From: a bacterium
GTDB lineage: Bacteria > SM23-31 > JAUVVT01
DNA: 7,715 nucleotides
Assembly (NCBI GenBank): GCA_030616165.1
Contig: JAUWXV010000179.1
Span: 1 to 7,715 of the forward strand
Direction of reading: 5' to 3'
Shown: piece by piece, positions 1,891-7,384 of the stretch
Position numbering within the stretch: position 1 is the stretch's first letter
How the letters are laid out: every line of letters begins with the position of its first letter
Translations under genes and position numbers: made by a program
The notes under the pieces: generated by a model
Database searches by the model: none
What the model was told of the DNA's origin: nothing
Seen by the model: the letters and a program-made list of their open reading frames with translations, nothing else

Positions 1891-4005
1891 ATGAAAAACA
1901 CAGATATCGAACAAAAAATCCTGAAATTTCTTAATTTGCATCAGGGAACAACATTCAGTTCGCGGGTAATATTTAAGGAACTTAATCTTCCCAGGAGTAA
2001 ATATCGTTCACTTCGGCTTATTTTGAAAGACCTTGCCAATCAAAAAAGGATTGAAAAAGTCGGGAAAAGAACATACAAGATAAAAAAGCCGCCTCACATG
2101 TCAATTGGTACAATTTCAATGACGAAAACTGGATATGGATTCGTGACCAATCACACAGATAAAAAAGAGATATATATTCCAATAGGGATGACCGGGACTG
2201 CAATGGATGGAGATACTGTTAAAGTTGAAATATACGCCTCAAGAAGGGGGAAATCTTTAGAGGGGGAAGTTGTTGAAGTCATCAAAAGAGCAAAAAAGAA
2301 AATTATAGGAACATATATGGAGAGTAAATCATTCGGATATGTGATTCCGGATGATAAAAAATGTACAAGGGATTTATACATAATTAAAGGGAAAAATAAA
2401 GGGGCAAAACAGGGAGAGAAAGTGGTTGCGGAATTTATCAAATGGGAATCTGAATATATGTACCCCGAAGGGATAATAAAAGAGGTTTTAGGAGACCCAT
2501 TTAAACCTGGAATTGATATGACTCTAATCGAAAAGGCTTTCGAACTTCCGAGGGATTTTCCTCTAAAGGTCAAGAAAGAAATAAAACTTTTGGATTTCAC
2601 AATTTTTGATTCGGAAGTCAAAAATCGAATAGACCTGCGAAATAAATTTATTCTCACTATTGACCCGGAAGATGCAAAGGATTTTGACGATGCGGTATCT
2701 CTTGAAATGCTTGAAAATGGTAACTTTTTGCTCTCCGTCAATATTGCTGATGTTTCTTACTATGTCAAAGAAAATACGGCAATCGATGAAGAAGCATTTA
2801 AAAGGGGAACAAGTGTCTATTTCCCCGACAGATGCATACCGATGCTCCCTAAAAAACTTTCGGAAGATATTTGCAGTCTCAAGCAAAATAAAGACAAACT
2901 GACCTTCACCGTTTTTATGGAAATAAATCCAAAAGGGGAGGTAATAAACTATAAACTTGCAGAAACCGTTATAAAAAGTAAGTTTCGACTCACCTATGAA
3001 AAGGCTCAAAAACTAATTGACGATAAAAAAGATTCAGAACTCGGAAAAACAATCTTGATGATGTCTGACCTTGCAAAGCTGTTGAAAAAAAACCGCATCA
3101 AAAAAGGCAGTCTTGATTTCGACCTTCCCGAGATAAAATTTTCTTTTGACCCGCTTGGTATCATAGAGGAGATAAAACCCAAACCAAGGCTCGACAGTCA
3201 CAACCTTGTTGAAGAATTTATGCTGATGGCGAATAAAGTTGTCACTCAATATATAGAAGAAAAAGCGAATGAACTCAAAACAAAAATACCTTTTATTTAT
3301 CGGATTCACGAAAAACCAGATAAGAAAAAAGTTGAGGAATATGCAAACTTCTTAAAAATAATAGGAATAAAATTCACTAATATTCAAAGACCCACTCCAA
3401 AAAGTTTTCAGAAAATCCTGGAAAAAGTAAAGAATAAACCTGAAGAAAGACTGGTAGGAGAGATTACATTAAGAAGTATGATGAAAGCGGAATATTCTCC
3501 AAAAAATATTGGTCACTTTGGGCTGGCATTTAAAAAATATACTCATTTCACCTCACCTATCAGAAGATACCCCGACCTTGTAGTGCACAGAATATTGAAA
3601 TCCTGCCTTAAAGAAGAAGAAAAGGATATGGCAGTGAGGATGAAACCAAAACTCAACGATATTTGCAGACATTCATCCGATATGGAGAAAAGAGCAGAAG
3701 AAGCAGAAAGAGAAGCCATTAAGATAAAACAACTCGAATATATGAAAGGTAAGCTCGGTGAGGAATTTGACGGCATAATATCCGGTGTCAGACCTTATGG
3801 TCTTTTTGTTGAGATTGAAGGCATCTTAGCAGAAGGGCTTGTCCACATCAGAAGTATGGATGATGACTACTATCACTATAACGAGGAGACATTTTCATTA
3901 ACTGGGTATCATTCAGGGAAAACATACCGGCTGGGAGGCAAAGTAAAAGTTCAGGTTGCAAGGGTTAATCTTGAAGAGAAACAACTGGATTTGGTGATTG
4001 TGTAA
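1891..4005 (+). CDS. rnr: Ribonuclease R (RNB-family 3'-5' exoribonuclease)
   Basis: A processive hydrolytic 3'-5' exoribonuclease that degrades structured RNA, rRNA fragments and mRNA in the cytoplasm. The 704 residues show the full RNase R order: winged-helix N-terminus (about 5-64), two cold-shock/OB domains (about 70-130 and 138-200), RNB catalytic domain (about 245-570) and a C-terminal S1 domain (about 622-704). The catalytic acidic motif TIDPEDAKDFDDA gives Asp258, 264, 266 and 267, spaced exactly as in E. coli RNase R (272, 278, 280, 281). The second signature, FTSPIRRYPDL, is at 553-563. The N-terminal helix-turn-helix separates it from RNase II. It is shorter than the 813-residue E. 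coli protein and lacks the basic C-terminal tail. The ATG at 1891 has no Shine-Dalgarno; it is chosen because the winged helix begins right after it. The gene stands alone and converges on the transporter gene. Confidence 0.95.
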   Translation: MKNTDIEQKILKFLNLHQGTTFSSRVIFKELNLPRSKYRSLRLILKDLANQKRIEKVGKRTYKIKKPPHMSIGTISMTKTGYGFVTNHTDKKEIYIPIGMTGTAMDGDTVKVEIYASRRGKSLEGEVVEVIKRAKKKIIGTYMESKSFGYVIPDDKKCTRDLYIIKGKNKGAKQGEKVVAEFIKWESEYMYPEGIIKEVLGDPFKPGIDMTLIEKAFELPRDFPLKVKKEIKLLDFTIFDSEVKNRIDLRNKFILTIDPEDAKDFDDAVSLEMLENGNFLLSVNIADVSYYVKENTAIDEEAFKRGTSVYFPDRCIPMLPKKLSEDICSLKQNKDKLTFTVFMEINPKGEVINYKLAETVIKSKFRLTYEKAQKLIDDKKDSELGKTILMMSDLAKLLKKNRIKKGSLDFDLPEIKFSFDPLGIIEEIKPKPRLDSHNLVEEFMLMANKVVTQYIEEKANELKTKIPFIYRIHEKPDKKKVEEYANFLKIIGIKFTNIQRPTPKSFQKILEKVKNKPEERLVGEITLRSMMKAEYSPKNIGHFGLAFKKYTHFTSPIRRYPDLVVHRILKSCLKEEEKDMAVRMKPKLNDICRHSSDMEKRAEEAEREAIKIKQLEYMKGKLGEEFDGIISGVRPYGLFVEIEGILAEGLVHIRSMDDDYYHYNEETFSLTGYHSGKTYRLGGKVKVQVARVNLEEKQLDLVIV

Positions 4006-4020
4006 ATATTTTTCCTATTT

Positions 4021-4046
4021 GCAACTTTTTTTGAAAAAAAAGTTGC
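4021..4046. terminator. Inverted repeat between convergent genes, likely bidirectional terminator
   Basis: GCAAC plus seven T (4021-4032) is complementary to seven A plus GTTGC (4035-4046), a 12-bp stem with a two-base centre; in RNA the loop would open wider. It sits in the 74-base gap between the convergent rnr and transporter stops. It lacks a clean T-run after the stem on either strand, though the minus strand meets a run of eight T beginning at 4041. The position supports a terminator, but the structure is not canonical. Confidence 0.5.
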
Positions 4047-4079: not shown

Positions 4080-5486
4080 CTAAATCGACGCTGGCATCTG
4101 GAATATGCAGAAATAACCGAAAACGACCGCAGCAATCGTCAGACCCACAATAAAAATCCAGTGTGGTTTGAGTATCTTCCATGCTTCAGTAGAAATAAGT
4201 TTCGGCAGAACCCACACCAGTCCTATCAAAACCAGAACAGCCTGAAAGGGTGTAAAAAGAAGCCCATCAAGAATTGCACTCATTTTAATTATAGATACAG
4301 GTTCTATCCCAAATGTGTATATAATAACAATATTTGTGATAAAAAACGTAGCAATAAAAATCCTGAACTGAGTTAACCACTGAAATTTTTTATTGAATTT
4401 AGGAACACAAATTCTCAAAGAATCGGCAATCAACCTTGGCCAACCAGCAAATTGACCGATAAGTGTGCTTATCAAAGCGGCACATCCAGCAATTATAAAA
4501 AGATATGCTCCAAATTTGCCCCATAGTTTGCCGAATACATTAGAAAGTTCAAGAGCAACTGAAGAACCCTGAGGTGCCAAATGCTCGGGACGAAGAATCC
4601 CCGAGCCGGATAACATAAAACCAGCAGTAACAACAATTCCTATTATCATTGCTACCGTAGCATCTACATAAACCACTCTGCACCATCCTTTTACCCTTTT
4701 TGCTGTTTCTCTTGTCATATTTTTCAGTGAATTGACATCGCACGGCTGACCATATTTTCTACCCTGTGCCATCCCATAACCTGCTCCAAAAACCCAGTAT
4801 GTATACCAGACCTGACTTGCAAAACCTCCCGCAGCCCATCCAATTAAGGGGAGTATTTCATTCCAGGGATTTGGAGATACACCCTCTAAACTTAACGCCC
4901 ACTGCGGAACCTCAGGAATATTAAATCCGATTACGCCTTTAAAAAATTCACCAAAACCAGGAAATGTATGAATTGCTACATATAATACACCCACTATTAT
5001 TATGAACACAAGCACACTCATTATATATTTTATTATATTAAATTTACCGGACCAAACCACAAAAATTGCAAAAATAGTAATAATCCATCCCCATATAAAT
5101 GGTTTAATAGGGATAATGGAATTAGCGAAAACTCCTGCAGCCGATGCAACTCCTCCAATAGAAATTGCTCCAGCGAGAAACTGACCGATAAGGATAATCC
5201 AGACTGCCCAGTTTCCTCTTCCGGGCATCCTGCTGAACATATCAATCATCCCTTCACCGGTACAGACTGTGTAACGCGCACCACTTAATCCTATGAAGTA
5301 TTTTAATAAGATTCCGACTACCGGTGCCCAAAGTACGGTGATACCAAGAATTGAACCCATTCTCGTTGCAAGTATCACCTCACCAGAACCAATATACTCA
5401 GCACACCAGACAAATGCAGGTCCAATAATCGCAAGAATCGCCAGCCCTTTCGGCGCTATACTGATATTGTTCTCATTCTTCATCAT
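4080..5486 (-). CDS. Nramp-fold transporter with altered metal-binding motifs
   Basis: Integral inner-membrane transporter of the Nramp family (LeuT/APC fold), 468 residues with about 11 hydrophobic segments. Family resemblance shows in GPAFVWCAEYIGSGEVILA in TM1 (about 22-40), the TM6 region (about 213-237) and the overall length. Classical Mn/Fe Nramps bind metal through DPGN in TM1 and an AMPH/MPH motif in TM6. Here the TM1 break reads GSGE (33-36), and the matching TM6 stretch reads about GGFASQVWY with no Met-Pro-His. An acidic Glu36 replaces the Asn, but the metal-ligating Asp and Met are gone, so manganese or iron transport should not be assumed. The first codons are TTG-ATG-ATG; the ATG at 5486 is preferred because AAGGGA lies seven bases upstream. 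The TTG at 5489 is too close to it, and the ATG at 5483 is an alternative. The gene is monocistronic by spacing and converges with rnr. A candidate operator lies at 5543-5561. Confidence 0.88.
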   Translation of the reverse strand: MMKNENNISIAPKGLAILAIIGPAFVWCAEYIGSGEVILATRMGSILGITVLWAPVVGILLKYFIGLSGARYTVCTGEGMIDMFSRMPGRGNWAVWIILIGQFLAGAISIGGVASAAGVFANSIIPIKPFIWGWIITIFAIFVVWSGKFNIIKYIMSVLVFIIIVGVLYVAIHTFPGFGEFFKGVIGFNIPEVPQWALSLEGVSPNPWNEILPLIGWAAGGFASQVWYTYWVFGAGYGMAQGRKYGQPCDVNSLKNMTRETAKRVKGWCRVVYVDATVAMIIGIVVTAGFMLSGSGILRPEHLAPQGSSVALELSNVFGKLWGKFGAYLFIIAGCAALISTLIGQFAGWPRLIADSLRICVPKFNKKFQWLTQFRIFIATFFITNIVIIYTFGIEPVSIIKMSAILDGLLFTPFQAVLVLIGLVWVLPKLISTEAWKILKPHWIFIVGLTIAAVVFGYFCIFQMPASI

Positions 5487-5542
5487 CAATTCATCCCTTT
5501 TTAAATCAATTTAACAAGAGTTTTTGATTGTATTCTAATGCC

Positions 5543-5561: not shown

Positions 5562-5741
5562 CTTTTTTGTAATTTTTATTAAAAAAAGTTTACTGTAGTT
5601 AAGCACTTTTTTAATGATAAAATAAAAAAAGTTCCTTAATTTTTATATTTGTATAATTTTCAAAAATATGTTAACGGACAGACAAATGCCTGCACACTGT
5701 GTTATATCCCCACATAATAATCATTTGTTATTAAATATATT

Positions 5742-5766
5742 GTAGGGACAGGACATTGTCCTGTCC
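5742..5766 (+). repeat. GTAG-headed palindrome C (REP-like)
   Basis: GTAG (5742-5745) directly abuts a perfect 10-bp stem, GGACAGGACA (5746-5755) with TGTCCTGTCC (5757-5766), around a single central T. The stem itself contains tandem GGACA units. As in palindrome B, the head occurs only on the left, which orients the element. It lies about 98 bases beyond the radical SAM stop. Confidence 0.75.
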
Positions 5767-6799: not shown

Positions 6800-7384
6800 T
6801 TACGGACGAATATCAAAGAACAAAATTCCGACCACAGTTAAAATGATCGAAACACATATCAGCAGAGATAAAGAGATAATGAACTCAATCCGGTAATGCC
6901 TACTTGGCAACGCTCGCCGCCGTGTTTCCAGCCAACCTGCTAAAACAGCAGCTGCGAACCCAACGAGCCATGCAATACCAATTTCGGGTTGATTCTTCCC
7001 TAAGAAATACTCATGGATTGTCGGGAGGGTTTTTCGTATAAAGATGTAAACAATGATGTCGGCCAACCAACAGAAAACGAGTACATAACAACCTAAAATA
7101 ATCCCATCCCTTATTGGGTAGTATGTCCTGACCCGTCGATAGTAGATGATCTGGGCAAACAGGATGAGACCCACAACATCCATGATGTTGATGAGGATAT
7201 AATAGAGAAGCAGGTGTGGGGTGAGTAGATAAGTTAGCCCGTGGATTTCCTGCACGGGGAACAAAAACCAAAGAAAGAATCCTACCAGACTCAAAATACT
7301 GTATAAAGTCAGGATGACCAAAGTCAGGAAGAGAAACTTTCTCCACCAGGGATCGTTCTGCACTGATGCTTCTATACTTCTCAT
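6800..7384 (-). CDS. Hypothetical five-helix integral membrane protein
   Basis: I do not recognise this 194-residue protein. Hydrophobic segments are at about 17-42, 57-81, 94-116, 135-152 and 167-190. The loops carry Arg clusters (RRVR at 83-86, TRRR at 154-157), suggesting cytoplasmic loops after TM2 and TM4. There is no cleavable signal peptide; the N-terminus is a short polar stretch with a WWRK motif. The loop between TM3 and TM4 (about 117-134, RKTLPTIHEYFLGKNQPE) is polar and could be functional. The ATG at 7384 is supported by GGAG eight bases upstream. Hand-counted GC over 6901-7380 is about 45%, against about 35% in sampled parts of rnr, with many GCC, CCC and CGG-type triplets; this suggests a different origin. 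The gap to the radical SAM gene is 171 bases, so co-transcription is uncertain. Confidence 0.75.
   Translation of the reverse strand: MRSIEASVQNDPWWRKFLFLTLVILTLYSILSLVGFFLWFLFPVQEIHGLTYLLTPHLLLYYILINIMDVVGLILFAQIIYYRRVRTYYPIRDGIILGCYVLVFCWLADIIVYIFIRKTLPTIHEYFLGKNQPEIGIAWLVGFAAAVLAGWLETRRRALPSRHYRIEFIISLSLLICVSIILTVVGILFFDIRP

Follow-up and report, generated by a model that had tools for sequence, protein, structure and literature searches.

Nramp-related proteins form a large group that is paraphyletic to the canonical Nramps and carries diverse residues at the DPGN and MPH motifs (PMC12873925). A motif-less group of this kind has already been described (PMC12873925, PMC4072509, PMC10606218), and it has been proposed that an outgroup links the carriers of non-metal solutes to the metal Nramps (PMC4072509). 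Within the motif-less group the NRMTs carry Mg2+ (PMC8806188), Mn import has been reported for MumT (PMC5050338) and YcsG (PMC10448178), and growth of C. glutamicum on 5-oxoproline requires PxpT (PMC13274462); for YcsG both claims, Mn and 5-oxoproline, have been made. No report of sugar-acid transport by the Nramp-related group was found in the literature, coverage of which was partial. Here we analyse an Nramp-related protein encoded in a window of 7,715 nucleotides (the whole stretch of DNA under study). With the Nramp-related ('orphan outgroup') PF01566 proteins it shares the fold, the superfamily and the absence of DPGN, MPH and the proton path, and it is not an isolated case, the class being already known. 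What is new is the gene context, a linkage to MDR and SDR dehydrogenases that was not in the literature found; its clade is further set apart by invariant TM1 and TM6 signatures of its own.

Results

The transporter gene and its family assignment

The features discussed below are all on the reverse strand of the window.

4083..5486, reverse strand: Nramp-related transporter gene, 468 amino acids from the ATG at 5486, stop codon at 4080-4082
5370..5408, reverse strand: TM1 signature W27-C-A-E-Y-I-G-S-G-E-V-I-L39, invariant in 24 aligned clade members save A29 and I38
5379..5390, reverse strand: GSGE tetrapeptide G33-E36 (GGT TCT GGT GAG, read 5390-5379), replacing the DPGN of TM1
5361..5363, reverse strand: R42 in TM1b, invariant in the clade and not conserved in canonical Nramps
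5181..5183, reverse strand: Q102 in TM3, invariant across the clade
4794..4841, reverse strand: TM6 signature G216-W-A-A-G-G-F-A-S-Q-V-W-Y-T-Y-W231, replacing GATVMPHNLYLHS (from the clade alignment, the AlphaFold2 model and the mapping to DraNramp)
4812..4820, reverse strand: ASQ, A223-Q225 (GCA AGT CAG, read 4820-4812), aligned by L-INS-i to DraNramp M230-P231-H232

A TTG at 5489 is an alternative start, which would give 469 amino acids. The window protein matches PF01566 (40.8 bits against a cut-off of 29.8) and the NCBIfam model NF037982, 'Nramp family divalent metal transporter' (124.8 bits against 50), and falls far under the cut-off of the MntH model (25 of 430 bits). The profile of the window clade alone found no PDB chain at E 1e-5, matches to ScaDMT being weak only, so Pfam, NCBIfam and the fold are the grounds for placing the protein in the superfamily. 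The window genome (G000) holds at least six PF01566 paralogues, on contigs C11, C37, C136, C143, C182 and C269, whose TM1 tetrads read, in contig order, GVGE, TAGS, GSGE, GTGS, GTGS and GSGE; no DPGN-type copy was found among its PF01566 proteins.

Loss of the metal ligands and of most of the proton path

The original prediction read GSGE at 5379-5390 where Mn/Fe Nramps have DPGN, and ASQ at 4812-4820 opposite MPH; the bases are exactly as described in both places. The alignment to DraNramp is ungapped from G22/P23 (DraNramp G45/P46) and replaces D56 by G33, P57 by S34 and N59 by E36. The register of TM6 differs by two residues between two alignments, L-INS-i placing DraNramp M230/P231/H232 on A223/S224/Q225, in agreement with the prediction, and MAFFT-auto and HMMER placing them on G221/F222/A223. 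Neither register puts Met or His at the site, so the loss of the ligands stands whichever is right: D56, N59, M230 and H232 are all replaced, as had been proposed. The proton path on TM3 and TM9 is almost entirely lost as well, with D131, E134 and R353 mapping to I110, V113 and I376. E124, Q378 and N275 are also replaced, by I100, A404 and T287. R352, retained as R375, is the only mapped metal or proton-path residue of DraNramp that is kept.

The retention of the Nramp scaffold, also claimed at the outset, is borne out by the PF01566 match and by an AlphaFold2 model with a pLDDT of 94.4 and a pTM of 0.93. The model input comprised 67 relatives, canonical Nramps among them, so the fold match depends partly on that choice; the PF01566 match is independent of it. 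The best solved structure match is DraNramp (6d91; Z 39.8, rmsd 2.5 A over 393 residues), and the best matches are canonical Nramps, followed by EleNRMT (7qia, 7qji; Z 32-34, 33.5) and the YcsG model 9a52 (Z 33.2, 18% identity). As modelled, the window protein has the Nramp-type LeuT fold, with helix breaks at residues 31-33 in TM1 and 219-220 in TM6. It thus shares the 11-TM LeuT-type fold of canonical Nramp/MntH proteins (SLC11; DraNramp 6d91, BfraNramp 10ky), from which it differs by lacking DPGN, Met/His and D131/E134/R353 and by belonging to a separate clade. EleNRMT resembles it in fold and in the missing TM6 Met; NRMTs, however, keep the TM1 Asp (DxxG) along with TxxA/T, where the window protein has GSGE and GGFASQ.

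A conserved clade with invariant TM1 and TM6 signatures

Scanning genome contigs with a six-row alignment of close relatives returned 23 loci at 46-80% identity, below which identity drops to about 30%. Their sources include Latescibacterota, KSB1, classes of Planctomycetota, one Acidobacteria and one Prolixibacteraceae bin. Searches of other phyla gave further members (one of them a fragment, another on the same contig as L040), and the clade comprises at least 30 relatives (45-81% identity). WC-EYIGSGEV and GGFASQV-Y are near invariant across it, and GSGE, FASQ and their flanking residues are without exception in 24/24 aligned members, so their presence is no accident. Invariant in these 24 are W27, C28, E30, Y31, I32, G33, S34, G35, E36, V37, L39, T41 and R42 in the TM1 region, and Q102, W208, E210, G216, W217, A219-V226, Y228, Y230, W231, D275 and T341 elsewhere. 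One KSB1 member (L057, 10001-11409) is split over three frames, through either frameshifts from assembly error or decay of the gene.

In a quick maximum-likelihood tree (IQ-TREE, 60 rows) a branch with an SH-aLRT of 100 separates the 24 clade rows from the rest, and the DPGN group stands apart with a support of 100. The original prediction had named, as support for a new substrate class, a clade that is separate and well supported and that conserves GSGE and the aromatics of TM6; such a clade was thus recovered. In the same tree the clade is placed among other GxGE 'Nramp-related' proteins, and the GxGD proteins, thought to be kin of PxpT and YcsG, are found in another branch. The invariant signatures and the supported clade indicate that the loss of the motifs is inherited and strongly conserved, rather than the result of decay.

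Linkage to MDR and SDR dehydrogenases

A first survey of the neighbours of clade members gave scattered genes only (DUF362, DUF1611, M55, amide hydrolases). The phylum of genome G262 offers more, a linkage conserved in this one phylum. Here the clade gene is present in 11/68 genomes and an orthologue of a zinc-type MDR dehydrogenase in 13/68, the latter occurring in 8/11 carriers of the clade gene against 5/57 non-carriers (Fisher p 2e-5, uncorrected for kinship). In 6/10 loci, of three families by the grouping of the tool, the MDR gene lies within about 1-2 kb of the clade gene, usually accompanied by an SDR gene like gluconate-5-dehydrogenase (neighbours in GC-rich contigs were assigned by tblastn). 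Transporter, MDR and SDR follow each other in that order on one strand in L180, L224, L229 and L230; L228 has the transporter and then the MDR gene, and in L227 the MDR-SDR pair is convergent with the transporter. The best family match of the SDR is gluconate 5-dehydrogenase (about 250 bits against a cut-off of 279), and the MDR is nearest to scyllo-inosose, threonine and idonate dehydrogenases, under the NCBIfam cut-offs. Both enzymes score under their family cut-offs, so the matches fix the enzyme class only.

In the window genome, orthologues of MDR and SDR (64% and 73-75% identity) adjoin each other on another contig, with genes for glucuronoyl-esterase-like, acetyl-xylan-esterase-like and enolase-superfamily proteins nearby; the TGA seen in frame in this MDR gene is its stop codon. 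The MDR orthologue was not found in the nearest relative, G001, whose genome is 70% complete. Beside MDR-SDR pairs in genomes where the Nramp-related gene was not found, no replacement transporter was recognisable by eye. KSB1 members have recurrent neighbours of their own, a DgcN-like DUF1611 gene and a D-2-hydroxyacid dehydrogenase gene, which also encode small-acid enzymes.

Apart from these, three distant clade members have a DUF362 gene upstream of the transporter, one or two genes away.

L040 160-1224; L055 4388-5557; L057 8038-9018: DUF362 gene, with a twin-arginine-like start in L040 and L057

The wider GxGE group

GxGE is a common tetrad among Nramp-related proteins: regions fetched from a sample of 389 genomes gave 38 genes of the GxG[E/D/S] type and one GPGS gene, alongside 23 canonical DPGN genes. 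Within two genes of the canonical Nramps, DtxR/MntR-type iron-dependent repressor domains were found in 4/87 proteins and FeoA domains in 4. Among the neighbours of GxGE and GxGD genes, in contrast, the leading families are GFO_IDH_MocA, amidase, malate/lactate dehydrogenase, FAA hydrolase and enoyl-CoA hydratase, and DtxR/MntR and FeoA-type genes are absent from the recurrent GxGE neighbours among the 25 top families listed, where a single DtxR gene could hide. The difference between the two sets is a trend rather than an exact test.

GxGE relatives lie in threonate-type, altronate-type, galactonate and lactate gene clusters, their contexts comprising four-carbon-acid-sugar kinase/PdxA, UxaA, LutABC, MR_MLE/FucP/RhaM and DgoK/KDPG-aldolase. 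Streptomyces plasmids carry genes for a four-carbon-acid-sugar kinase, PdxA and an aldolase, and the gene that immediately precedes the GxGE transporter there encodes a 2-hydroxyacid dehydrogenase. In Rubrobacter a UxaA hydrolase gene adjoins one GxGE gene and lactate-utilisation genes adjoin another; a Fodinibius locus encodes a sugar-acid dehydratase-like enzyme, an SDR, a fucose permease and a rhamnose mutarotase, and a locus of a Bacteroidetes bin encodes DgoK and KDPG aldolase. Every plasmid homologue found (23/23), including those in sugar-acid and lactate clusters, bears the name 'Nramp family divalent metal transporter'.

Two further arrangements were seen. L153 has three tandem GxGE Nramp-related genes at 6781-11687 and a fourth at 73-1632, and in Eudoraea-like genomes (L083, L090, L111, L115, of which L083 and L090 were searched with Pfam) a GxGE gene is flanked by genes for a xylose-isomerase-like TIM-barrel protein and an Amidohydro_3 protein.

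Other features of the window

A 26-base palindromic intergenic repeat, GGACAGGACAATGTCCTGTCCCTACA, is present at 5741-5766 on the reverse strand and has 35 copies in the genome, 31 of them exact, against 0 in a reversed-pattern control. Copies often lie less than 300 bases from a contig start, so the repeat probably breaks the assembly. Between the convergent genes for RNase R (ending at 4005) and the transporter (ending at 4080), an inverted repeat, GCAACTTTTTTT/AAAAAAAGTTGC, at about 4014-4041 is likely a two-way terminator; it was seen by eye and was not reported by a consensus scan. A predicted membrane protein of 194 amino acids (6800-7384, reverse strand) has no Pfam or NCBIfam match; L041 encodes a homologue of it (18549-19112) close to the clade gene.

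Discussion

We propose, at about even confidence, that the window protein is an importer of an organic solute, probably a sugar acid, rather than a divalent metal transporter. It would act as a LeuT-fold secondary importer on the Nramp scaffold, working by alternating access on a sugar acid or a similar polyhydroxy or hydroxy carboxylate. The substrate site would lie between the broken helices of TM1 (GSGE) and TM6 (GGFASQVWYTYW), probably lined by E36, E30, R42, Q102, S224/Q225 and Tyr/Trp residues instead of metal ligands. The imported acid may then feed the MDR-SDR pair for oxidation and subsequent re-reduction, as in the idonate/gluconate or L-gluconate/D-idonate pathways. Idonate is converted to gluconate by a pair of dehydrogenases. 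The step from L-gluconate to D-idonate is catalysed by LgnH/LgnI (PMC12632266). The IdnD-IdnO-IdnT and LgnH/LgnI modules thus share the dehydrogenase pair with the loci described here, and Idn has an importer too; that importer, however, is GntP-type, whereas the one proposed here is Nramp-fold and the substrates of its enzymes are putative.

This reading draws on the gene context, i.e. the MDR-SDR linkage and the occurrence of GxGE loci in acid clusters, together with the lost metal ligands, and it has a precedent in PxpT, an Nramp-family protein required for growth on 5-oxoproline (PMC13274462). Against it, no catabolic gene adjoins the transporter in the window, where RNase R converges on it and the gene upstream encodes a radical SAM protein; the MDR orthologue was found in only 8/23 further clade genomes, some of them incomplete; and many MDR-SDR pairs have no adjoining transporter.

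The original prediction held that replacement of the motifs implies another substrate or coupling ion. Another substrate has the support, short of proof, of the gene context, which favours an organic acid; loss of the motifs alone is weak proof, because YcsG (PMC10448178) and MumT (PMC5050338) reportedly raise Mn and a triple mutant of EcoDMT without the Met and Asn (M235A/N54G/A232T) still moves Mn (PMC8806188). We therefore weighed the alternative that a divalent metal (Mn2+, Mg2+ or another) is still carried, through a site rebuilt from E36, E30, S224 or Q225 and backbone carbonyls, the catabolic neighbours merely being enzymes that require metal. This appears rather unlikely, if well worth considering: YcsG is reported to be regulated by MntR (PMC10448178), MumT raises the Mn of the cell (PMC5050338), NRMTs move Mg2+ with DxxG and TxxA/T (PMC8806188), and among the several PF01566 proteins of the window genome a DPGN one was not found. 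However, the TM1 Asp that is retained in NRMT and NRAT is gone from the window protein. The window has no Rfam match at the gathering threshold, to the M-box riboswitch or any other element, although the M-box, found with many NRMT members, is lacking in some of them too. Moreover, DtxR/MntR and FeoA-type genes recur beside canonical and not beside GxGE loci among the 25 families listed, and the family of the linked SDR is not known to require metal. The caution that a label of manganese transporter would mislead was fair.

A different class of organic substrate, such as D-amino acid derivatives, short peptides, N-acyl amino acids or a lactam like 5-oxoproline, is less probable still. It would suit the DgcN-like DUF1611 gene that precedes the transporter in KSB1, the D-2-hydroxyacid dehydrogenase gene in L050 (adjacent in L042 too), the M55 D-aminopeptidase gene downstream in L039, the linear amide hydrolases in L041 and L046 and the amidase in L181, but each such neighbour occurs in one to three loci only. 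PxpT again serves as a precedent, PxpT and YcsG being, like the window protein's relatives, Nramp-family proteins in catabolic operons; in the loci examined, however, 5-oxoprolinase genes were not found nearby, judged by the signature motif of PxpA as a marker of pxpABC linkage. A sensor or receptor that no longer transports, a role proposed for the Nramp-like domain of plant EIN2, would accord with the lost canonical ligands and was set aside as highly improbable, since an extra signalling domain is absent and both helix breaks and the glycine-rich hinges are kept and invariant.

Returning to the import of sugar acids, a broader proposal, which we put forward more tentatively and at less than even confidence, is that the GxGE branch as a whole consists of organic-acid importers, within which the window clade would serve aldonate-type sugar acids via the linked dehydrogenases and from which the metal Nramps would be a later offshoot. 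For many bacterial proteins the name 'Nramp family divalent metal transporter' comes from a profile match alone, and should organic acids be what the GxGE branch carries, such names would mislead reconstructions of metabolism and of metal homeostasis. If true, the proposal would also supply a missing step between the amino-acid-type LeuT-fold carriers and the metal Nramps, a link that has been proposed in the literature and for which few members have been tested, and the linked enzymes point to concrete candidate substrates.
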